Origin: Acidobacteriota bacterium
Lineage (GTDB): Bacteria > Acidobacteriota > UBA6911
Length of the DNA: 43,819 nt
Reading direction: 5' to 3'
NCBI GenBank assembly: GCA_031271905.1
Contig: JAISUT010000059.1
Span: 1-43,819 of the forward strand
Part shown: piece by piece, positions 11,440 through 23,375 of the stretch
How the letters are laid out: every line of letters begins with the position of its first letter
How positions within the stretch are numbered: position 1 is the stretch's first letter
The notes under the pieces: generated by a model
The model's input: the letters and a program-made list of their open reading frames with translations, nothing else
Databases searched by the model: none
What the model was told of the DNA's origin: nothing
Made by a program: the position numbers and the translations under genes

Positions 11440-11859
11440 ACGTAAAAAATCGTATGCGGATTCCAATGAAATCGCCGCGGAACGCCCGGGGAAATCCCGC
11501 ATCCCTCCCTCGTTTGGACGTTTTGACCCGTGTTTTCGCCTGTTTCCATGGGGATCGCCGCTCCCGGCGCGTGTGTCGCATGTTTCAAATGATGTCGTAA
11601 ATATCGTATACGATTTTTTTTGCTTGACCTTGGAAAACCCTCCATGCAAGGATGGGCAACCGCTCGATAGAGGAGGTCGGCGGTCTCACCCGATTTTTGG
11701 AATGCGTTTCTACGGATGTTTCTTTTGCGGACGTTTGTGAGCGGGCGGCGTTCCGGGGAAGGGGAAGAAGGGCCCCGGGACGTCTTTCCATCTGTAAAAA
11801 ACCGCCCCCCGTACTGGCCGGGGGGCGGGTCTAACGATGGTTTTGACGAGGTAGGCATT
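11440..11859 (+). promoter_or_regulatory. Receptor 1 regulatory region and structured leader
   Basis: Closely related to the region before receptor 2 (17105-17540). It contains an operator-like palindrome (ATCGTATACGAT, 11603-11614) and a distal variant (11449-11461), a -35/-10 pair TTGACC (11624-11629) and AAGGAT (11648-11653) with 18-bp spacing and an extended TG, then about 200 nt of leader. Stem 1 pairs 11749-11758 with 11773-11782; stem 2 pairs CCGCCCCCCG (11802-11811) with CGGGGGGCGG (11819-11828) around a TACTGGC loop and ends about 30 nt before the ATG. The conservation between paralogues of otherwise divergent DNA points to function. Confidence 0.65.
11603..11614. promoter_or_regulatory. 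Perfect 12-bp palindrome upstream of receptor 1 promoter
   Basis: ATCGTATACGAT, ten bases before the -35 box. Related sites occur at 11449-11461 and, before receptor 2, at 17120-17132, 17275-17284 and 17290-17301; a weaker one (TCCGTATACATT, 22403-22414) lies upstream of the IclR gene. Likely binding site for a dimeric regulator; the linked IclR protein is the obvious candidate (inference). Confidence 0.55.
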
Positions 11860-14800
11860 ATGTCAAGAAGAACGTGTACGGGTTGTACGGCGCATTCTCC
11901 CGGCAGAATGTCCGGGGTTCGCCGATGTGGTCCGCCCCCCGATGAAGACGTGAAGCGCATCGGGGTTCGCGCAGCGCAGTGTTTCTCGCTTCTCGCCCTC
12001 GCGTTGCTGACGGTGCTGCTGTCGGCGCCGGCGTTCGGGCAGGGGACTTCCGCTTCCTTGCGCGGAACGGTCTCAGACGCTTCAGACGCGGTGCTGCCCG
12101 GAACGGCCATCACCGCCATCAACGTGGACACCGGCGTTGAAACCAAGGTCACGACCAACAATGTCGGAATCTACACGTTGGTCTTGCAGCCGGGCGTCTA
12201 CATCATCAGCGCCGAAGCCGCAGGCTTCCAACGCACCACCCGCACCGACGTGAGGCTCGGCGCCGGCGCACAGGTCAACCTCCCCCTGGTGATGGCGGTC
12301 GCGGGGCAGTTGACGGAGATCGAGGTCACCGAGACGGTCGAAAGCATGGTGCTGGAGGCCAGCGCCTCGACCGGGACCGTCATACAGGAAGACGTCATCA
12401 CATCGATCCCGACGCTCGCCCCCAACGCCATCGAGGCGACGCTCAACGTCATGGGCGGCGTGACGAAGATGACCTCCGGCAGCACGGTGTTTAGCGCCGC
12501 CTCCCAGGAGGTCGCCGGCATATCGTCGTCGATGATCAACGTTTCGCGCGACGGCATCACCGTCAACGAAGTCCGCAACCCCACCGGCATCGCCGCCTCC
12601 TCGAACATCAACCCGGAAGTCGTCGGTGAGATGAGGGTCATCCAGTCCGCGGTGGACGCGGAGATGGGGCGCGGCGCCGGGCAGATCCAGATCACCACCC
12701 GGTCGGGTTCCAACGCATTCCACGGCTCCGCCGTCTGGAACGTCCAGAACACGGTGTTCGACGCGACCGATTTCAGCGTCAAGCAGCGCGGGCTGGAGGC
12801 CAACTGGCGCAATGTGCACAACTATACGCTGACCGGCAGCGGCCCGATCATCAAGAACAAGACGTTCTTCTTCGCCAGTTGGGAGCAACAGATCGCCCGC
12901 GACAAGATGATCCAGATCCCGCGCGTCATGACCTCGTGCGCGAGGCGGGGCATCTACCGCTGGCTGTCTTCCAACGTCAACGGCGTCCAGCAAGGATGGC
13001 TGCCCAACGTCATCAGCTCGACGGATTCGTACAACATCGCCCAGGGGAACATGCGCAGCGTGAACGAGGACGGCACGCCTTGGGGCGGCGGCACGGTCAC
13101 AAACACCGTCGGCAACGCGCCCTACACCGTGGGGCCCACCAGGGTGGAGTTCGAGAGCGTCTTCGGCGTGTTGCAACCGAGCGTCAGGGCGCAATTGAAC
13201 CAGCCGGGCGCCTCCGGCGTCTATGGCGATTGCTCGATCATGGACACGCTGGGTTACGACCCGATGAACAACGTTTTCCTGACCACGACCGACGGCTCGA
13301 ACACCAACGCCTGGGCCAGCGGCGCCTACCGCTACGCCTACGACCCCACCGGGTTCGCGGATCGGTTCGTCAGGACGGGCGCCGATTACGGTTCGGGCAC
13401 GGTTGTGATGCCCGAGGCCAACTATTTCATGGGCCAGGGCGACGGGCTGAACTCCGCCGGCTATAAGTGGAACACGCTCATGATAGGTCAAGGCGCCTCG
13501 AACTACGGTCTCGGCGGCGATCCCGACCGCAAGTCGATCACCGTGAGAATCGACCATAACATCAACAACAGCCACCGTCTGAGCGGCACCGTCGATAAGG
13601 AGTTCTACCATGTCTGGGACGCCTACCGCGTATGGCCGGAATCTTACGGGGGCTACCATGGCGACATCAACCGCAAGCCCCTGCGCTTCTCGGTCACCCT
13701 CAACTCCACGGTCACATCGACCATACTGAACGAATTGCGCTTCGGCGTCTCGCGGTCGGACACGTGGGTCTATAAGCCGCTGGACAGCCCGCAGGACGGG
13801 GAGAAGATGAAGGCGGTGTTGCAGGCGTTGGCGGGGAACCTCCCGGCCAGCGCGAACAACCCGTACGCCGGCTCGTGGGCCGCCGACCAACCGCTCCTCA
13901 TCGGCTTGGGGGACGGGGACGGCGGCGCGGTGAACACCACCGCCGCCCTGAACGCCACGGCATACCGGAACGACGTCAACCCCGTGATGGGCGCGACGGA
14001 CAACATCGACCGCTCCCATCCCTACGGCACGCGCGGCAACCTCCAGGCGACATGGGGCGGGAGCGACCCCCGCTGGTCGATCGGCGACACGGTGACGTGG
14101 ATAAAAGGCACGCACAGCTTCAAGGGCGGCTTCGAATATCGCCGACAATCCTCGTACCAGTCCTACCAGGGCACCACATCCTCGTTCGCGCGCGGCGGCG
14201 GGAACACGAACCTTTCGACGGTTCGCGGCGGGATAGTCTCTGCCGCCAGCCAGCGCCGCAGGGAGTCGCTGGCAAACGCGAAGGCGGCGGGGTTGGGATG
14301 GCAGAACGTGTATCCGGGCAGCCTGGACAACGCCTCGGGGACCGTGTCTGGGAACTTCGTGATGCCTTACAACATGATGACCTTCTTCTCCGGGTCGCTC
14401 TCGGACACGAGCCTGATGTACTACGCGATCCCCGACCAAAGCGCCGTCAACGGCGCCAGGTGGAACGACATGCTGGCGGGGGAGGATTCGTATGACTACA
14501 CCATAAGGAACCAGGAGTTCAGTTGGTTCTTCAAGGACGACTGGAAGGTGACCAGCAACCTGACGCTGAACCTCGGCGTGCGCTGGGAATACTATGGGGT
14601 CCCCCATGCGGACAACGGCGTGACCTTGGCGGTCAAGGGCGGCAGCAAGAGCGCCTGGGGCATTACGACGCCTGGCGATTTTTACAACCACGGCGAAGGC
14701 TGGGTCGTGAACCGGAACTACCTGCCCGGTTTCGAGAGGGACGCCGCAGGCAACCCGATCCTCCCCGATCCGGTGATCGAGTACGAGTATATCGGCCCCG

Positions 14801-16782
14801 GATCGCCGAACCCCGACAAGTCGGTCTGGAACAAGGATCTGAACAACTTCGCGCCCCATGTCGGCTTCGCGTGGCAGTTGCCCTGGTTCGGCAGGGGGCT
14901 GACGACGTTGCGCGGCGGTTATTCGGTCAGCTACTCCCCGATCGACAACTTCAACAGCTTCCCGGGCCAGTTCGTCAACGTGGGCGCCGCAGGCGTCACC
15001 TACACCAACACCTTCACCGGCTCCGGGAGCCTGACCGATCCCAACAGCACGGCCTATTACATGGATCTCACCGACCTTGGGAACAACCCGAGGCACGATG
15101 CGCTCCTGCCGCTCCAAGTGCCGGGGAACGTATACCCCCTGGGCGTCCAGAGGAATGACGCGATCTTCAGCTCCGCCGTGACCGCGATCGACGAAAACCT
15201 CAGCAGCCCCTACGTACACAGCATCAATGCGTCGCTGACCCGCAGCATCGGGAACATGTTCACGGTCGATGTGCGGTACATCGGCACTTTCAGGCGGAAC
15301 ACGATCAGCAGCCTGAACGTCAACGCGAACCCCTACCTCGACACCTCCCTGCTGAACTGGACGGAGGAGCTCAACAAGGTTCGCGCGGGGGGCGAGAGCA
15401 TGTACATCAACAGCCTCATCCCGCAGAACGGGCCGGCGGGGAGCCAGATGTATTACAGCACCGTCGCCGGCGAGACCGGTTCGGATCAGCTCCGGCGGCA
15501 GCAGGCGGGCAACTTGGCGCGCGCGCTCTACGGCACCCTGGTCAGCACCCTGGGTTCCGCAAACGGACAGCTTCCCACGACCTTCGGCACGGAAAACGGG
15601 CTGCTCATGCGTTCCGGATGCCTGCCGGGGGATCGCCCGGGCTACATCGCCGCTTTCAACGCGGCCGCCAACCCCCACAGCGTGGATGTGAACCAATACC
15701 CGTGTTCGGTCGGCACGCCGCTGAACATGTTTTACTCCGCCCCGCAGTATGCCAACGTGTACATACGGCATAACGACAACTCGGTGAACAACTACAATTC
15801 GATGCAGGCGCAGGTGACGATGCGTCCTACCCGCGGATTGAGTTTCCAGACCACCTACACGTGGAGCCGCAACATCGGCGACTCCGCATGGACAAACTAC
15901 CTCGGCGACCGGGACTATGTCCTGTCGACCCAGCATCGCACCCACATGCTGAGGGCCTTCGGAAGCTACGAACTGCCTTTCGGCCCGCAGGGGTTCTTCC
16001 TGCGCAACGCTTCCGGCTTATTGAAGAAAGCCATCGAAAAGTGGCAGGTGCACTGGGTCCTGGGGATGGAATCCGGGCCGCCGCTCTCCGTGACCGCCTC
16101 CGGATCGGGCTCCACGCTGTGGGGCAGGACCTGGCCGGTCCTTGTGCGTTCCGACCTTTGGGACGACAAGCAGGGGAACGCGAGGATGGAATGGGGGCCC
16201 GACGGCGAGTTCGTGTCCGGCACCTATCTGTCCAGGGATTATGTGAAAGTGATCGATCCCGTCATCTGCAACCCTGACAAGATGACCCCCTCCCTTTACT
16301 CCGCGCAATGCGGCGTCCTGACGGCGACCTACGCGCTCGCGCTGGCCACCAAGAACTCCAGCGGGCAACTGGTTGCCGCCACCTACGACCGCGACACCGT
16401 GGGCGAGGACGGCGTCACCTACAAAGCGGGAACCCCCATCATCGTGTTCCGCAACGCCGACCAGTCCGAAGGCGTCAACGCCAGCGGCAACTACAAGCCC
16501 AACCGCATGACGGGCCAAGGTCGTTTCAGCTTGGACATGGCCGCGTCGAAGACGATCGAGTTCATGGACGGCAAACGGTTCGAGATCCGCGTCGACGTCC
16601 AGAACATACTCAACCACCCGACTCCGATCGGCGGCACGGCTCCCACGGCGATGGAATCCGGCGGTCGCTACGTGTCGATCGACTCTCCCACCATGGCCAT
16701 CTCCACATCCACCCCCATCGGCCTGTTGCAGAACAAGGGGGGGCATCGCACATTCCAGGCGAAATTGGCATTCCGGTTCTAA
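11860..16782 (+). CDS. Oar-like TonB-dependent outer-membrane receptor 1
   Basis: 1640 residues. An unusual 36-residue N-terminal extension (MSRRT...SPGRMSGVRRCG...VKRIG) precedes a signal peptide (LLALALLTVLLSAPAFGQ). Then a carboxypeptidase-regulatory-like beta-sandwich (SLRGTVSDASDAVLPG... to about residue 160), a plug region (about 160-330, ending near AEMGRGAGQIQITTRSG) and a very long beta-barrel ending LAFRF, with the terminal Phe of outer-membrane barrels. This is the Oar/Acidobacteriota type; ligand unknown, probably a large glycan or peptide. Start chosen at 11860 because GAGG precedes it and the same start and extension are kept in receptor 2. ATG at 11909 is an alternative. About 1640 residues is long even for this family (usually near 1000-1200). 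Confidence 0.88.
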   Translation: MSRRTCTGCTAHSPGRMSGVRRCGPPPDEDVKRIGVRAAQCFSLLALALLTVLLSAPAFGQGTSASLRGTVSDASDAVLPGTAITAINVDTGVETKVTTNNVGIYTLVLQPGVYIISAEAAGFQRTTRTDVRLGAGAQVNLPLVMAVAGQLTEIEVTETVESMVLEASASTGTVIQEDVITSIPTLAPNAIEATLNVMGGVTKMTSGSTVFSAASQEVAGISSSMINVSRDGITVNEVRNPTGIAASSNINPEVVGEMRVIQSAVDAEMGRGAGQIQITTRSGSNAFHGSAVWNVQNTVFDATDFSVKQRGLEANWRNVHNYTLTGSGPIIKNKTFFFASWEQQIARDKMIQIPRVMTSCARRGIYRWLSSNVNGVQQGWLPNVISSTDSYNIAQGNMRSVNEDGTPWGGGTVTNTVGNAPYTVGPTRVEFESVFGVLQPSVRAQLNQPGASGVYGDCSIMDTLGYDPMNNVFLTTTDGSNTNAWASGAYRYAYDPTGFADRFVRTGADYGSGTVVMPEANYFMGQGDGLNSAGYKWNTLMIGQGASNYGLGGDPDRKSITVRIDHNINNSHRLSGTVDKEFYHVWDAYRVWPESYGGYHGDINRKPLRFSVTLNSTVTSTILNELRFGVSRSDTWVYKPLDSPQDGEKMKAVLQALAGNLPASANNPYAGSWAADQPLLIGLGDGDGGAVNTTAALNATAYRNDVNPVMGATDNIDRSHPYGTRGNLQATWGGSDPRWSIGDTVTWIKGTHSFKGGFEYRRQSSYQSYQGTTSSFARGGGNTNLSTVRGGIVSAASQRRRESLANAKAAGLGWQNVYPGSLDNASGTVSGNFVMPYNMMTFFSGSLSDTSLMYYAIPDQSAVNGARWNDMLAGEDSYDYTIRNQEFSWFFKDDWKVTSNLTLNLGVRWEYYGVPHADNGVTLAVKGGSKSAWGITTPGDFYNHGEGWVVNRNYLPGFERDAAGNPILPDPVIEYEYIGPGSPNPDKSVWNKDLNNFAPHVGFAWQLPWFGRGLTTLRGGYSVSYSPIDNFNSFPGQFVNVGAAGVTYTNTFTGSGSLTDPNSTAYYMDLTDLGNNPRHDALLPLQVPGNVYPLGVQRNDAIFSSAVTAIDENLSSPYVHSINASLTRSIGNMFTVDVRYIGTFRRNTISSLNVNANPYLDTSLLNWTEELNKVRAGGESMYINSLIPQNGPAGSQMYYSTVAGETGSDQLRRQQAGNLARALYGTLVSTLGSANGQLPTTFGTENGLLMRSGCLPGDRPGYIAAFNAAANPHSVDVNQYPCSVGTPLNMFYSAPQYANVYIRHNDNSVNNYNSMQAQVTMRPTRGLSFQTTYTWSRNIGDSAWTNYLGDRDYVLSTQHRTHMLRAFGSYELPFGPQGFFLRNASGLLKKAIEKWQVHWVLGMESGPPLSVTASGSGSTLWGRTWPVLVRSDLWDDKQGNARMEWGPDGEFVSGTYLSRDYVKVIDPVICNPDKMTPSLYSAQCGVLTATYALALATKNSSGQLVAATYDRDTVGEDGVTYKAGTPIIVFRNADQSEGVNASGNYKPNRMTGQGRFSLDMAASKTIEFMDGKRFEIRVDVQNILNHPTPIGGTAPTAMESGGRYVSIDSPTMAISTSTPIGLLQNKGGHRTFQAKLAFRF
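11937..11965 (+). other. Conserved hairpin inside the receptor 1 N-terminal codons
   Basis: CCCCGATG (11937-11944) and CATCGGGG (11958-11965) form a perfect 8-bp stem with a 13-nt loop. The same stem and loop length occur in receptor 2 at 17612-17640. It lies between the presumed start codon and the signal-peptide codons. Confidence 0.5.
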
Positions 16783-16817
16783 GGGGTCGTTTCGCTGGAG
16801 GGTATGGCATGTAGGCA

Positions 16818-16855
16818 AACCACGGGGCGCCCTCGGCGACGGGGGCGCCCACCCG
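16818..16855 (+). terminator. GC-rich hairpin after receptor 1
   Basis: GGGCGCC and GGCGCCC around a short loop (ACGGGGCGCCCTCGG... GGGGGCGCCCAC), some 40 bp after the stop codon of receptor 1. No strong U-run, so termination is possible but not certain. Confidence 0.4.
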
Positions 16856-16943
16856 GGAAGCCGGGATGGGGCGTGGCGAGACGGTAAATCGCCCGCCCCT
16901 GCACCCCATGTGATATAGTCGCTAGGAATTTTGGGAGGTCGCC

Positions 16944-17104
16944 ATGGCACATCCTTGATTTTCCAGACTCGTCACCGCATTCCTGCTTCTATCCGCTTTC
17001 TCCATCCTTCCCCTCTCCATCGGACGGGCGGCGGACGACGCTTTCGAGCCCGAGGCGTCCGAACCGCTCAGGATAAAGCTGTCCGTCACCCCTTCCCGGT
17101 GCCG
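16944..17104 (+). pseudogene. Decapitated exported-protein gene with premature TGA at codon 5
   Basis: A good ribosome binding site (GGGAGG, 6 nt upstream) precedes ATG-GCA-CAT-CCT-TGA. Reading on in the same frame gives FSRLVTAFLLLSAFSILPLS then IGRAADDAFEPEASEPLRI and KLSVTPSR: a textbook signal peptide with AxA-like cleavage site and the start of a mature protein. TGA is one base from TGG (Trp). About 45 codons later the frame runs into DNA homologous to the start of the receptor 1 upstream region. The simplest reading is a secreted-protein gene that once followed receptor 1 and was cut when the second receptor with its own control region was placed here. Product unknown. Confidence 0.6.
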
Positions 17105-17540
17105 GGATGCATCGAAAAAATCGCATGCGAATTCCAGTGAGATCGAACCGAACCATCGGTGGGGGTCTCGCCATTCTCCGTCGTTTGGGCGTTTCGACCG
17201 GTGTTTTCGCGGGTTTTATACGGAAAACACCGCTCCCGGCGCGGGTGATGCATGTTGTAAATTAGGTCGCAAAAATCTTATACGCAAAAATCTTATACGA
17301 TTTTTTGCTTGACCTTTGGAAACCCTCCGTGCAAGGATGGGCAACCGCTCGACCACCCTATTAAAAGGAGAGGTCGGCGGCGGACACGCCCAGGGAATGC
17401 GTGATTGAGAAGGGCGTTTTGGTGAAAAAGGGCGACGCTCCGGGGAAGAAGGGCCCCGGGGCGTTTTCCATCTGTAAAAAACCGCCCCCCCGTACTGGCC
17501 GGGAGACGGGTCTAACGATGGTTTTGACGAGGTAGGCATT
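17105..17540 (+). promoter_or_regulatory. Receptor 2 regulatory region and structured leader
   Basis: Homologous to 11440-11859. Operator-like sites: TCGCATGCGA (17121-17130) and two tandem ATCTTATACG copies (17275-17284 and 17290-17299). Promoter: TTGACC (17309-17314) and AAGGAT (17333-17338), 18-bp spacing. Leader stem 1 pairs CGCTCCGGGG (17436-17445) with CCCCGGGGCG (17454-17463); in receptor 1 the third pair is T-A instead of C-G, a compensatory change. Stem 2 (around TACTGG) is kept but has a 3-nt internal mismatch here. Differences in operator number suggest different regulation of the two receptors. Confidence 0.65.
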
Positions 17541-20500
17541 ATGTCAAGAAGAACGTATGCGGCGGCGTATTCTCCCGGCAGAATGTCCGGGGCGCGCCGA
17601 TGTGGTCCTCCCCCCGATGAAAACGTAAAGCGCATCGGGGCTTGCGCAGTATTTCTCGCCCTCGCGTTGCTGCTGTCGGCGCCGGCGTTCGGCCAGTCCA
17701 CGGCCGCGTCCCTCGGCGGGACGGTCATGGACGCCTCGCAGGCGGTCTTGCCCGGGGCGGCGGTCACCGCCATAAACACCGCGACGGGCGTGGAGACCAA
17801 GACGACGACCAACAACTCGGGCGTCTACAACTTCCCCAGCTTGCAACCCGGCGTTTACAACGTGGTCGCCGTCATAAGCGGGTTCCAGACGGCCACCAAG
17901 ACCGATGTGCGCCTGGGCATGGGTTCGCAGACCCGGTTGAACTTCGACCTCGTGGTCGCCGGGACTACGACGGAAGTGGAGGTGACCACGAGCGTCGAGA
18001 ACGTGATCCTGGACGCCGGTTCCTCGACCGGGACCGTGTTGCAGGAAAACGCCGTGATCGAGCTGCCCTTGGTCGCCAACGACGCGATGGAGTTGATCAA
18101 CGTCATGGGCGGCGTGGTCAAGTCCGAAAGCCCGACCTTCTACGGCGACCAGCAGACCTTCGCCGGCGTCTCGGGCAACAACATCAACATCTCGCGCGAC
18201 GGCATCTCCGTCAACGAGATCCGCTACAACTCCGGCATCACCTCCCCCGCCCGGCTCAACCCGGAGCTGGTGGGCGAGTTCAAGATGGTGCTCTCCCCGG
18301 TGGATGCGGAGATGGGGCGCGGCGCCGGACAGGTGCAGATGACCACCAAGTCGGGGACGAACGCCTTCCACGGCTCGGGCGTCTGGAACATCCAGAACTC
18401 GGCGTTGGACGCCTACGACTATTCCGACAAGGATCAGGCCGTGGTCAACCCGCGCGCCTGGCGCAACCTGCACAACTACACGTTGTCCGTCAGCGGCCCG
18501 ATCATCAAAAACAAGACCTTCTTCTTCGCGTCTTGGGATCAGGCGATCGCGCGCGGCCGCACCTCGCTCAGCACCCGGGTGCTGACCAACTGCGCGCGCA
18601 AAGGCATCTACCGCTACCTCACCGGCGTGCGCAACACCAACGCGCTCGCCGACCCGGCGGTGATCTCGGGCACGACCCCGCAACGCCCCACCGTGGACTT
18701 CGCGGGCAACCCGTTGCTCAACTACACGTTCCCGGACAACCCGATGTACGGCGCCTTCTCCGGTCAGCAGAACAACGCCACGCTGATGTACCAGAGCGTG
18801 CTGGGGGAACTCGACTCGACGGCGCTCGCCCAGATCGCCGCCGAACCGGTCAACTGCTCGCAGTACCTGCCCGACTACGGCCCGAACGACATGATACCGG
18901 TCACGGCGAACTTCCGCGTCTCGAACCCTTGGGACAATTACCGGAACCAGTACGACCAGAGCGGCTTCGTGTCGCGCTTCACGGCGATGATGCCGGAGGC
19001 TAACGACTGGCAGGTGGGCGACGGCCTGAACATCGCGGGCTATCGCTGGACCCGCACCAGCAAAGGCTCCGCCACGATCTTCGGCGGCAACCTTTACGAC
19101 GACAACCGCAAGGCGCTCACCGTCAAGATCGACCACAACATCAACGTCAACCACCGCATCAGCGGCACATACTCCTATGAGACCAACTACGGCGACGACG
19201 GCGAGCGCGTGTGGCCCGAGTCGTACGGCGGCTACGGCGGCCTGATCGAACGCAAGCCGCAGACCTTCACCGTGACGCTGACCTCGACGCTGAGCCCGAT
19301 GCTGCTCAACGAGTTCCGCGTCGGCATGTCGCGCACGGAGACCGAGACTTACGACTCGATCTACAACCCGCAGACCGGTTCGACGCTGAGTCAGATCCTC
19401 GTCGACCTGATAGGGTCGGACGACGCGACCAGGTTCCCGCGCTACACGAACCTGCCGATCCTGGCCGGTGCGGGCGCCGGCGGCACCGCCATAGAAAGCA
19501 CGCTGTTCCATCCCGAGGGCGGCCTCAACAGCCAGCCTTACGGCTCCCGGGGCAACCTTTCGACGACCTGGGGCGGCGTGGATCCGCGCTGGACGTTCGC
19601 CGACACGGTCACCTGGATGAAGGGGTCGCACTCCTTCAAAGGCGGCGTCGAGTACCGCATGCAGAAGTCGTACCAGGAGAACAACGGCTTGCCGTCGTTC
19701 TCCAACGGCGCCGACACCTACCCGTCGGTCAAGGGCGGCGTGTTGAGCTCCCTTTCGCCTTACCGCGACGATGCGTTCTCCTCCGGCGCCAGCGCCTGGC
19801 AGAACATGCCCGCCGCCGACCTCGACTACTTTACGGGTCTGCGGACGCAAACCGGCAACTACGCCGGCGCCTACAACCTGATGACCTACATGACCGGCTC
19901 CATCGGGGTCATCTCCCAGTATTTCTTCGTCACCGACGCGAAGAACCCGCGCTGGAACAAGGCGGGCGACGGCGAGCTGTTCAAGGTCGCCGACCTGCGC
20001 AACCGCGAGTTCAGCGCCTTCTTCAAGGACGACTGGAAGCTCAACAACAGCCTGACCCTCAACCTCGGCGTGCGCTACGAGTATTATGGCGTGCCGTGGG
20101 ATGCGCAGGGGTTGACCGCCGGAGTCCTGGGCGGTTTCGCCGCCGCGATGGGGGCGACCGGGGGCGACCTGTCCAACTGGATGCCCACGGTCAGCCAGTT
20201 GGAGTCCGTCAGCGGGCCTGCGGGCACGGGCGACACCGGCTACCGGACGCAACAGGCGTTCATCGGCCCGAACTCGTCGCACCCGGAGATCTCGGCGTTC
20301 AACAAGGACATGAACAACTTCGCGCCCCACGTCGGCTTCGCCTGGCAGTTGCCCTGGTTCGGCGCGGGCAAGACCACGTTGCGCGGCGGTTATTCGATCA
20401 GCTACACGAAGGTCAGCAACTTCGACAACACCTTCGGCTACTCCTCGGTGCTGTCCAACGCCCCGGGCATGACCTACGCCTACCTCTACTCCGGCGGGGA

Positions 20501-22193
20501 GAACTGCCTCGGCGTGGATCAGAACGGCGCGGCGCCGGGGAACGGCTGTTACCTGAATTTCGACAACTTCGGGAAGCTGCTGCCGTTGTATGACAGCTCG
20601 AGCGGCTTCCTCGGCATGGCGACCCAGCCGACCATCTTGGGCGAGCAGCCGATCTACAAACGCGACCAGACCCTGAGCATGTACGATCCGAACATCAGGA
20701 ACCCGTACATCCAAAACCTGACCCTGTCGCTGACGCGGCAGATCGGCAACAACCTGACGGTGGACGTCCGCTACATTGGCACGCTCACCCGCAAGGGGAT
20801 CTCCAGCACCAGCATGGGCCTGAACGTCAACACGCCCAACCTGATCAACTCCGGCTTGATGGAAGAGTTGATCAAGGTGCGCGCCGGCGGCGAGTCCGCC
20901 ATGCTGAACGAGATGATCCGGCCGGGAACCCTCAACGTCCAAGGGAATAACTTCACCTTGAGCGGCTCCCAGCAGATCCGCAACCAGTACGCGACCAACC
21001 TCGCCCTCGGCAACATGAATGCCGTGGCGGCGGCCCTCGCCACCGCCAACGGCGCCGCCACCGGCAGCTTGGCGACCCTGCAGGCGCCCGGCGTCAGCGG
21101 CCTGGTGTTGCGCAATTCCGCGAGCGGCAGCACCCTCAACGGCAAGCCGACCCCGGAAAACCTGATCTACGCCAACCCGCAGTACGCCGCGGTGTACGTC
21201 CGGCGGAACCAGGAACACGCCAACTACCATTCGATGCAGGCGCAGGTGACCATGCGCCCGACGCGAGGCCTCAACTTCCAGGCGACCTACACCTGGAGCC
21301 GGAACCTGGCGCGCGCCGCCGTCACCGACTACCGCGACTGGACTGCCGATTACTGGCTCTCCGGCCAGCACCGCTCCCACCAGTTGAACGTCAACGGGAC
21401 GTACACGCTGCCGTTCGGCGCCAACGGGTTCATCGCCCGCAACGCCTCCGGCTTGGTCAAAAAGGCCGTCGAGGGGTGGCAGGTCGGCTGGATCGCCAGC
21501 GCGGTCAGCGGCGTGCCGATGTCCCTCACCGGTGCCACCACCCTGTGGGCCAACGGTGCCATGAACATCACGCCCGAGGGCGAGAAGCTGTGGAACAACA
21601 AGGCGGGCAAGGTGGAGTGGGACGACGAGCTGAACGACGGTCAGTTCTTCGGGGGCAAGTACGAGCGCATCATCGATCCGCAGTGCTTTAACCCCGCCGT
21701 GATCGCGCCCGGCGCGTCCGGCATCCCCGGCACCGGGCTGCAGGGGACTTGCGCCACCAACGCCAGCGGCTTGAAGGCGATAGTGCTCGTCGATCCCAGC
21801 AAGCCGGTCGCCGGGTACCAGACCGTGAACACCGTGACCGGGGCGTTGAGCAACCCGGTCAACGGCACGATCATCTTCGAGAACCCGCTGCCAGGTCAGC
21901 GGGGCAACTTCCAGGGGCCGCGGCTGACCGGTCCCGGTCGCTGGAACCTCGACATGAACATCAGCAAGTCCATCGAGTTCATGGAAGGCAAGAGGATCGA
22001 GCTGCGCGTAGACGCGCAGAACATCTTCAACCATGCGACCCCGTCCTACGGCTCCTCTACGCTTGGCGCTCGCAACAACACGATCTCCAACCCGTACGTG
22101 ACCGTGAACACGAACTCCAGCAACTCGTTCGGCCTGCTCGACACCAAGACCGGACACCGGACATTCCAAGGGAAGATCAGGATCAGCTTCTAA
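17541..22193 (+). CDS. Oar-like TonB-dependent outer-membrane receptor 2
   Basis: 1550 residues, a paralogue of receptor 1 with the same order: N-terminal extension (MSRRTYAAAYSPGRMSGARR), signal peptide (FLALALLLSAPAFGQ), carboxypeptidase-regulatory-like domain (SLGGTVMDASQAVLPGAAV, to about residue 145), plug (ending AEMGRGAGQVQMTTKSG) and barrel ending IRISF. Long matching blocks with receptor 1 include NFAPHVGFAWQLPWFG, MQAQVTMRPTRGL and TVDVRYIGT; loops differ strongly, as expected if the two bind different ligands. Start chosen by identity of context with receptor 1 (GAGG then ATG). Both receptors lack an adjacent SusD-like or TonB/ExbBD gene. Confidence 0.88.
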   Translation: MSRRTYAAAYSPGRMSGARRCGPPPDENVKRIGACAVFLALALLLSAPAFGQSTAASLGGTVMDASQAVLPGAAVTAINTATGVETKTTTNNSGVYNFPSLQPGVYNVVAVISGFQTATKTDVRLGMGSQTRLNFDLVVAGTTTEVEVTTSVENVILDAGSSTGTVLQENAVIELPLVANDAMELINVMGGVVKSESPTFYGDQQTFAGVSGNNINISRDGISVNEIRYNSGITSPARLNPELVGEFKMVLSPVDAEMGRGAGQVQMTTKSGTNAFHGSGVWNIQNSALDAYDYSDKDQAVVNPRAWRNLHNYTLSVSGPIIKNKTFFFASWDQAIARGRTSLSTRVLTNCARKGIYRYLTGVRNTNALADPAVISGTTPQRPTVDFAGNPLLNYTFPDNPMYGAFSGQQNNATLMYQSVLGELDSTALAQIAAEPVNCSQYLPDYGPNDMIPVTANFRVSNPWDNYRNQYDQSGFVSRFTAMMPEANDWQVGDGLNIAGYRWTRTSKGSATIFGGNLYDDNRKALTVKIDHNINVNHRISGTYSYETNYGDDGERVWPESYGGYGGLIERKPQTFTVTLTSTLSPMLLNEFRVGMSRTETETYDSIYNPQTGSTLSQILVDLIGSDDATRFPRYTNLPILAGAGAGGTAIESTLFHPEGGLNSQPYGSRGNLSTTWGGVDPRWTFADTVTWMKGSHSFKGGVEYRMQKSYQENNGLPSFSNGADTYPSVKGGVLSSLSPYRDDAFSSGASAWQNMPAADLDYFTGLRTQTGNYAGAYNLMTYMTGSIGVISQYFFVTDAKNPRWNKAGDGELFKVADLRNREFSAFFKDDWKLNNSLTLNLGVRYEYYGVPWDAQGLTAGVLGGFAAAMGATGGDLSNWMPTVSQLESVSGPAGTGDTGYRTQQAFIGPNSSHPEISAFNKDMNNFAPHVGFAWQLPWFGAGKTTLRGGYSISYTKVSNFDNTFGYSSVLSNAPGMTYAYLYSGGENCLGVDQNGAAPGNGCYLNFDNFGKLLPLYDSSSGFLGMATQPTILGEQPIYKRDQTLSMYDPNIRNPYIQNLTLSLTRQIGNNLTVDVRYIGTLTRKGISSTSMGLNVNTPNLINSGLMEELIKVRAGGESAMLNEMIRPGTLNVQGNNFTLSGSQQIRNQYATNLALGNMNAVAAALATANGAATGSLATLQAPGVSGLVLRNSASGSTLNGKPTPENLIYANPQYAAVYVRRNQEHANYHSMQAQVTMRPTRGLNFQATYTWSRNLARAAVTDYRDWTADYWLSGQHRSHQLNVNGTYTLPFGANGFIARNASGLVKKAVEGWQVGWIASAVSGVPMSLTGATTLWANGAMNITPEGEKLWNNKAGKVEWDDELNDGQFFGGKYERIIDPQCFNPAVIAPGASGIPGTGLQGTCATNASGLKAIVLVDPSKPVAGYQTVNTVTGALSNPVNGTIIFENPLPGQRGNFQGPRLTGPGRWNLDMNISKSIEFMEGKRIELRVDAQNIFNHATPSYGSSTLGARNNTISNPYVTVNTNSSNSFGLLDTKTGHRTFQGKIRISF

Positions 22194-22322: not shown

Positions 22323-22538
22323 CATGGCGTCGCCGGCAGGGGGGCGTTTTCCCCGCGCCAGACGCATTTGGGCGACATTTCGTTCTGGACGACGCAACGA
22401 AGTCCGTATACATTCTGGCCATCGGCAACCGGCAACCGGCGATCCTGGATGCGGCGCATTTTCATGTGAACCGGTCGCCGCCGGTTGGCATCTATTACGA
22501 AGATATTAGAGAAGGGGCTTGGATTGGAGGTCTTGGAC

Positions 22539-23375
22539 ATGGCTGATGCCAAAGGCAGGGGGACGAAGAAGCGCGACGAGAATGTCGAGACGGAAGGCGT
22601 CCTGGTGGACGGGAAGTTGCAATACATCGTGCCGGCGGTGGACAGGGCGGTGAAGATCCTCCTGCTGTTGAAACGCGAAGGGCGCGAGATGACGATAGCC
22701 GAGATAGCCGACGCGACCGGGTGGCCGCGCAGCAGCATCCACAAAATCCTCCTGACATTGAACTACCACGCCCTGCTCGACCGGGACGTGCGCACCAAGC
22801 GCTACTCGCTGGGAAGCGAGTTCACGGACATGGGGCAGTTCACCATCGCCGCCGGCGTCCAGAGGTTGCGTTCCGTCTCGAGGCCGTTCCTGGAGCAGCT
22901 CGTCAAGTACAGCAACGAGAGCGCGTCCGTGTCCGTGTTGCGGAACACGCAGATAATATTCCTGGACGGCGTGGAGGCCCCCGTCCCCAACCGGGTATCC
23001 GTGATCATCGGCGTGAGCATGCCGGCGACGGTCACCGCGAGCGGCAGGGCGGTGTTGGCGTTTCTGCCCAGCGCGCGCGTGGACGAGATCGTGCGCAGCG
23101 TGGGGCTGCCGTCCACGAGCGGGAAGTCCATCGTCAGCATACGCGACTACTACAATGAGCTGGATATCGTCCGCAAGCGGGGCTACGCCATAGACGGCGA
23201 GGAATGGCGCACCGGGATGGTCGGCGTGGCGGCGCCGGTGTTCAACCCGAGGAAGCAGGCGGTCGGCGCCGTGTCCATCGTGGGCGAGCCGGCGCGGATG
23301 CCGATGGACAAGCTCGACCGCTACGGAAAGAAATGCGTGAAGGTCTCCGAGGAAATCACCCGCCAACTGCGCTGA
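22539..23375 (+). CDS. IclR-family transcriptional regulator
   Basis: 278 residues. A winged helix-turn-helix at about 33-95 (VPAVDRAVKILLLL, MTIAEIADATGWPRSSIHKI) is followed by an IclR effector-binding domain to the end (SGRAVLAFLP, RKRGYAIDGEEW, GVAAPVF, GAVSIVG). The first 28 residues are a charged, probably disordered tail. Start at 22539 is set by GGAGGT 7 nt upstream. IclR proteins bind short palindromes as dimers of dimers and answer to small catabolites. It sits behind the receptor pair, separated by a terminator, and a GTATAC-centred site like those before both receptors lies upstream of it; local control of the receptors is likely but unproven. Confidence 0.9.
   Translation: MADAKGRGTKKRDENVETEGVLVDGKLQYIVPAVDRAVKILLLLKREGREMTIAEIADATGWPRSSIHKILLTLNYHALLDRDVRTKRYSLGSEFTDMGQFTIAAGVQRLRSVSRPFLEQLVKYSNESASVSVLRNTQIIFLDGVEAPVPNRVSVIIGVSMPATVTASGRAVLAFLPSARVDEIVRSVGLPSTSGKSIVSIRDYYNELDIVRKRGYAIDGEEWRTGMVGVAAPVFNPRKQAVGAVSIVGEPARMPMDKLDRYGKKCVKVSEEITRQLR

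Follow-up and report, generated by a model that had tools for sequence, protein, structure and literature searches.

The locus and the leaders of its receptor genes

The window analysed here comprises positions 1 to 43,819 of contig JAISUT010000059.1 of assembly GCA_031271905.1, from an Acidobacteriota bacterium (UBA6911). It carries two genes encoding Oar-like TonB-dependent receptors, in which PF13620 is followed by PF25183, both above the Pfam cut-off. The leaders of these two genes are designated c1 and c2; c3 is the leader found on C64, and C9a, C9b, C9c and C55 are the other leaders of the same genome. The features of the window are the following:

11603..11619, + strand: operator-like palindrome ATCGTATACGAT with a T-run, copy 1, just 5' of the -35 (genome-wide pattern search)
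11624..11653, + strand: predicted promoter, copy 1, TTGACC, 18 nt, AAGGAT (consensus match only)
11747..11784, + strand: stem-loop 1, copy 1, with GAAGGG at the loop end and a 6-nt loop insertion (covariance model, 80.3 bits; covariation; folding)
11802..11828, + strand: stem-loop 2, copy 1, loop UACUGGC (covariance model, covariation, folding)
11829..11862, + strand: near-invariant stretch UUUUGACGAGGUAGGCAUU, with the Shine-Dalgarno (SD) sequence GAGG at 11848-11851 and AUG at 11860 (97-100% identity among c1-c3)
11860..16782, + strand: Oar-like TonB-dependent receptor 1, 1640 aa, CarboxypepD_reg and OMP_b-brl_4 (Pfam)
17290..17306, + strand: operator-like site, copy 2, ATCTTATACGATTTTTT (genome-wide pattern search)
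17309..17338, + strand: predicted promoter, copy 2, TTGACC, 18 nt, AAGGAT (consensus match)
17434..17464, + strand: stem-loop 1, copy 2, loop AAGAAGGG (covariance-model match 17434-17509, 83.5 bits; folding)
17482..17509, + strand: stem-loop 2, copy 2, loop UACUGGC, with internal mismatches (covariance model, folding)
17541..22193, + strand: Oar-like TonB-dependent receptor 2, 1550 aa (Pfam)
22485-23375: IclR-family regulator, directly 3' of receptor 2

The match between 11440-11859 and 17105-17540 reported in the initial annotation is confirmed. In a blastn search of the whole genome, 11440-11859 retrieves c2 at 17115-17540 (72% identity, E 1.3e-62) as well as c3, which precedes a third receptor (C64:74662-75066, 74%, E 7.7e-70). 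The genome harbours seven copies of the leader in total, i.e. two in the window and five elsewhere, of which one is close (c3) and four lie beyond the reach of DNA searches (C9a, C9b, C9c, which is at a contig end, and C55). The latter four are barely detected by a DNA profile; examined by eye and by folding, they display GAAGGG on the 3' side of the stem-1 loop, followed by a second stem whose loop contains CUGG, an SD and the ATG. All seven precede members of a long (1400–1700 aa) Oar-like subfamily. The genome encodes about a dozen Oar-like proteins, and the shorter genes (on C27, C30, C37 and C61 and at 19 kb on C55) do not carry the motif.

Conservation between c1 and c2 is patchy: 90% identity in the operator and promoter, 46% in the spacer, 76% in stem 1, 84% in stem 2 and 100% in the final 31 nt, ATG included. 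The corresponding ranges for c1-c3 are 90–93%, 44–74%, 76–94%, 75–84% and, for the last 31 nt up to the ATG, 97–100%. This alternation fits what is expected of functional blocks. The c1/c2 match runs about 100–150 nt past the start into the coding region (signal peptide), and leader similarity among paralogues dies out by about codon 30–50. The frame of receptor 1 is open across the leader (window 11716-11859), where translation from ATG 11716 would lengthen the protein by 48 residues, and the leader frame is open in c3 as well. Since it is closed in C9a, C55 and the relatives, the leader is unlikely to encode the N-terminus of the receptor.

A conserved two-hairpin RNA

Of the features described in the initial annotation, the U-A to C-G compensatory change in stem 1 and the shared U-G wobble are both present. 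Stem 2 (loop TACTGG), said to lie just before the SD, is found as described in c1, where it ends about 20 nt 5' of the GAGG at 11848; in c2, it is weakened by internal mismatches. Over an alignment of 12 sequences fitted to the covariance model, a plain alignment misplacing the outer stem pairs, 16 of the 21 pairs have changed on both sides and 88.9% of the pair cells hold standard pairs. The covariation score reaches 0.64, compared with 0.30 ± 0.03 for shuffled alignments (none of 500 shuffles reaches 0.64) and with 0.15–0.29 (maximum 0.285) when partners are slid along the alignment. When 14 leaders are aligned plainly with MAFFT, RNAalifold detects the core of each hairpin, 8 of 10 pairs being compensated, and all 14 sequences fold both hairpins individually, loop 2 being different in one of them (G005b). 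For single sequences, the folding energies in many cases do not stand out (z between +0.2 and -3.3), and they do not clearly separate the sense from the antisense strand.

The stems vary more than the loops. Stem 2 varies from CCGCCCCCCG/CGGGGGGCGG in the window to UUAUUUUUCG/CGAAAAAUAA in genome G002, and its loop stays YNYUGGC. The GAAGGG of loop 1 is invariant (14/14) and YUGG is found in loop 2 of 12 of the 14 leaders, being altered in G005b and in G003b (CCUGC). A stretch resembling UUUUnACGAGGU precedes the AUG in most of the leaders of relatives. The compensatory changes support a common RNA structure, whose loops and position the sequences show to be fixed.

The two hairpins might be passive and act without a partner, serving only to shield the 5' end of a long mRNA for a membrane protein or to leave the start region accessible. 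Leaders that confer stability on mRNAs of outer-membrane proteins are known, and in each of the 14 copies stable hairpins do lie close to the start codon. However, a stabilizer needs stems and not particular loop letters, and here stems vary freely while GAAGGG is invariant and the CUGG-type loop seldom altered, making a purely passive role unlikely.

Range of the leader

The initial annotation had proposed a cis-acting RNA for Oar-like receptor genes, which could be sought with a covariance model. A first model (R1) was built only from the seven leaders of the source genome. These score 62–84 bits in their own genome, the next match being at 25 bits; as the seven match by construction, the informative part is that nothing else does. 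R1 also retrieved five new matches (31–47 bits) from four other species of the same genus (two in G002, one each in G003, G005 and G006), before any of them entered a model. Four of the five directly precede a receptor of the same long Oar-like subfamily; the other one (G002, C341) ends with UUUUUUUGACGAGGUAGUGU-AUG, then the contig ends and the downstream gene is cut off. With the rebuilt model (R2), the 12 strong members score 53–79 bits and two weaker matches appear, on C4 of G005 (29.5 bits) and on C131 of G003 (22.9 bits), both directly before the same receptor subfamily as identified by an independent protein profile. In total, the models yield seven copies in the source genome and five strong and two weaker ones in four sister species, and every copy with readable downstream sequence (13 of 14, all in the sense orientation) precedes the subfamily. 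The other weak R2 matches examined do not precede it, one of them, in G278, being associated with a distant match.

The proposed association passes the search suggested in the initial annotation, further copies having been found upstream of receptors, and is to be narrowed to the long subfamily, since the shorter Oar-like genes of the source genome lack the motif. The nearest branch of the subfamily (G003 C221, G008 C227) does not have the motif, and the leaders of more distant members (G003 C221, G007, G008, G009 and G014) give no model match. Among 396 genomes of the phylum, nothing besides the members rises above the noise level of about 25 bits. Used as a DNA query against 59 relatives, the leader gave no match outside the source genome, and the 28-nt conserved block has no exact occurrence in the genome contigs and viral contigs searched. 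Among the named relatives of the receptor, 10 of 11 are labelled Acidobacteriota and the closest is a metagenome-assembled genome (MAG) labelled Lentisphaerae; that genome, G396 (L132), has no convincing match to the motif. The known range of the element is one clade within one genus, in five genomes.

Two observations concern individual receptor genes. A more distant one, in G008 (C112, L147), has a TTGACA/TAGGAT promoter and, behind it but well 5' of the ATG, a single hairpin whose loop is UUGAAGGG, possibly a remnant or a variant of the motif. The leader-bearing gene of G003 C131 (L088, about 1695) has an in-frame TAG within the signal peptide, read as a pseudogene or a sequencing error.

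Promoter, operator and terminator signals

A TTGACN/TAGGAT-like pair separated by 16–18 nt, mostly located after a T-run, is found in each of the 13 leaders whose upstream DNA can be read, the second hexamer being poor in G002b (GAACAT). In c1-c3, the palindrome ATCGTATACGAT abuts the -35. Searched genome-wide with up to two mismatches, ATCGTATACGAT plus the T-run occurs only at the c1-c3 promoters, and a control pattern gave no hit. The IclR-family regulator encoded at 22485-23375 is a candidate for these sites, its link to ATCGTATACGAT being only a guess. The C55 leader (L030, minus strand, first 240 nt; L031:17150-17430) lacks a promoter of its own: the DNA 5' of it bears no relation to that of C9c, and the junction lies at a repeat, GACAAACGSCGGTTTG, that also occurs close to C9c and at the end of the contig, which looks like a rearrangement.

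Transcription attenuation, with stem 1 or stem 2 acting as an intrinsic terminator, could be suggested by the 4–6 T found in the 8 nt after stem 1 in 8 of the 14 copies. However, this T-rich tail is missing from the other six, no conserved leader peptide is seen on inspection, and neither leader of the window contains an intrinsic terminator on the plus strand, the sole terminator-like site being stem 2 read on the minus strand. Attenuation is therefore quite improbable. A leader-peptide mechanism was discarded as well, as the short ORFs (ATGCGT..., about 11700) are not conserved on inspection. On the minus strand, stem 2 (11802-11828; 17486-17506) is a hairpin followed by TTTTTT, a run that is not retained in the C9/C55 group.

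Comparison with known leaders

No Rfam 15 family, including riboswitches, thermometers, Acido-1 and Acido-Lenti-1, matches the window leaders or the 14 leader loci near threshold, and searches with E-value limits of 5 and 3 gave unrelated weak matches only. Acido-1 and Acido-Lenti-1, neither of which matches the leader, are motifs from Acidobacteria that were listed in 2010 as not cis-regulatory (PMC2864571). In its nature, i.e. a covarying 5'-UTR RNA with fixed loops tied to one gene family, the leader resembles the orphan cis-regulatory motifs of the Weinberg/Breaker type. Compared with Rfam 15 and with the two motifs of the 2010 list, it looks like a real new family of structured-leader RNA.

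Cobalamin riboswitches also form structured leaders before TonB-dependent receptor genes, but they do not match the leader, which consists of only two simple hairpins. A metabolite-binding riboswitch or an RNA thermometer controlling the receptor would be in keeping with a conserved leader before transport-type genes, with the two conserved hairpins and with a possible AGGG-CCCU contact between loops 1 and 2, feasible in 10 of the 14 leaders. However, the leader has neither a junction nor an extensive conserved core, conserves neither an alternative terminator nor a stem that would sequester the SD, and matches no Rfam riboswitch. The loop contact cannot form in c1-c3 and shows no covariation, and such a kissing interaction is not claimed here. 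A sensor of this kind is thus improbable, though slightly less so than attenuation.

The leader can also be compared with outer-membrane protein mRNAs that are controlled by small RNAs or by RNA-binding proteins (CsrA/RsmA sites), in which loops before the SD serve as recognition sites. By analogy, the two loops might play such a part. In contrast to CsrA/RsmA targets, the hairpin loops do not all contain GGA (UUGAAGGG in G006, for instance), loop 1 reading nnGAAGGG in the alignment of the leaders. Concerning the downstream proteins, they share the CarboxypepD_reg and OMP barrel architecture of the family of Oar, a protein that in Myxococcus is needed for the secretion of the protease PopC (PMC6434023). 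Within the Oar/TonB-dependent transporter family, the leader is restricted to the long 1400–1700 aa subfamily of one genus.

Distinct histories of leaders and receptor bodies

The receptor bodies are only about 50% identical (protein range about 44–64%), with 47–65% identity at four-fold sites; between the c1 and c2 bodies, the values are 46.6% in protein and 55.5% at four-fold sites. The leaders form two groups, {C9a,C9b} and {c1,c2,c3}, both of which are rejected by the maximum-likelihood tree of the bodies (p 2.6e-63 and 1.1e-9, respectively). C9a and C9b have leaders that are 90–100% identical and bodies that share 51%, and the C9b body is closest to that of c3 (64%), though the c3 leader is only about 40% alike. 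The near identity of the C9a and C9b leaders indicates recent conversion. The divergence of the bodies and the conflict between their tree and the leader groups argue for the exchange or homogenization of a 5' module: most likely, the promoter-leader-start unit was exchanged or converted between paralogues, or the bodies were replaced behind it.

A very recent duplication, named in the initial annotation as something that could alone account for the similarity, is contradicted by these data. More generally, the view that nothing is selected and that duplication or gene conversion alone keeps the leaders alike could draw on the C9a/C9b pair. However, between groups and species the stems are almost wholly different in sequence and still pair, and the bodies are far diverged at four-fold sites; covariation across five species already refutes this view, which hardly retains any probability.

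The same conflict of histories might point to an element that works as DNA, for instance a cruciform or a site of recombination swapping receptor 5' ends, and compensatory changes would preserve DNA hairpins too. Against it, the position of the element is tied to the start codon, no recombinase was recognized among ten neighbouring ORFs tested, and plain homologous recombination suffices. In addition, G-U is twice as common as A-C on the sense strand (26 versus 13 cells), which leans towards RNA without being decisive. Overall, a DNA element appears very improbable.

A model for the control of the receptors

Based on the conserved structure, the fixed loops and their placement, the promoter pattern and the decoupling from the body, all of which emerge from the sequences compared, the following scheme can be proposed; the transcription start, the action in cis and the recognition by a trans factor are inferred. 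The receptor mRNA of the long subfamily would start at the TTGAC/TAGGAT promoter with a leader of about 130–250 nt. The 3' part of this leader would consist of stem-loop 1 (nnGAAGGG), a linker of about 10–25 nt, stem-loop 2 (nYUGG) and, usually, UUUUnACGAGGU-AUG. The element would work in cis on translation or on mRNA stability, and a shared, hypothetical RNA-binding protein or small RNA would most likely read the two fixed loops. Such a shared partner is favoured because the loops are more conserved than the stems and because the genes form a repertoire of divergent surface receptors. Divergent and interchangeable receptors would thereby be controlled together, and the promoter-leader-start unit would be a 5' module exchanged or homogenized between paralogues. 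The probability given to this reading as a whole, i.e. action in cis, probable reading of the loops by a shared trans factor and exchange of the 5' module, is about 0.62.

A more ambitious and only tentative proposal is a new RNA regulon: a single factor would bind the leader common to the receptor repertoire, and recombination would swap bodies behind promoter-leader cassettes; the homopolymer tracts of some cassettes could then switch expression on or off. If true, this would be a surface-variation system under common post-transcriptional control. Beyond this proposal, an RNA family supported by covariation is linked to a subfamily of receptors whose regulation has received little attention, and the GAAGGG and CUGG loops provide a concrete tag for seeking the partner that would control the repertoire. 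As receptor bodies and 5' control units appear to evolve separately, the modular rewiring of surface receptors becomes testable.

Several homopolymer runs lie near the 5' ends of the receptor genes. In c1, c2 and c3, runs of 6, 6 and 8 C are found in the N-terminal coding sequence, before the signal peptide (window 11920-11950 and 17600-17620; L004, about 7140). Soon after its ATG, C9b carries a run of 14 G (L031:10127-10170) that puts this ATG out of frame with a 1524-codon receptor frame; the neighbouring C9a, with 9 G at the corresponding site, is in frame. The C9b run is possibly a phase-variation tract, or else an assembly error in the MAG.
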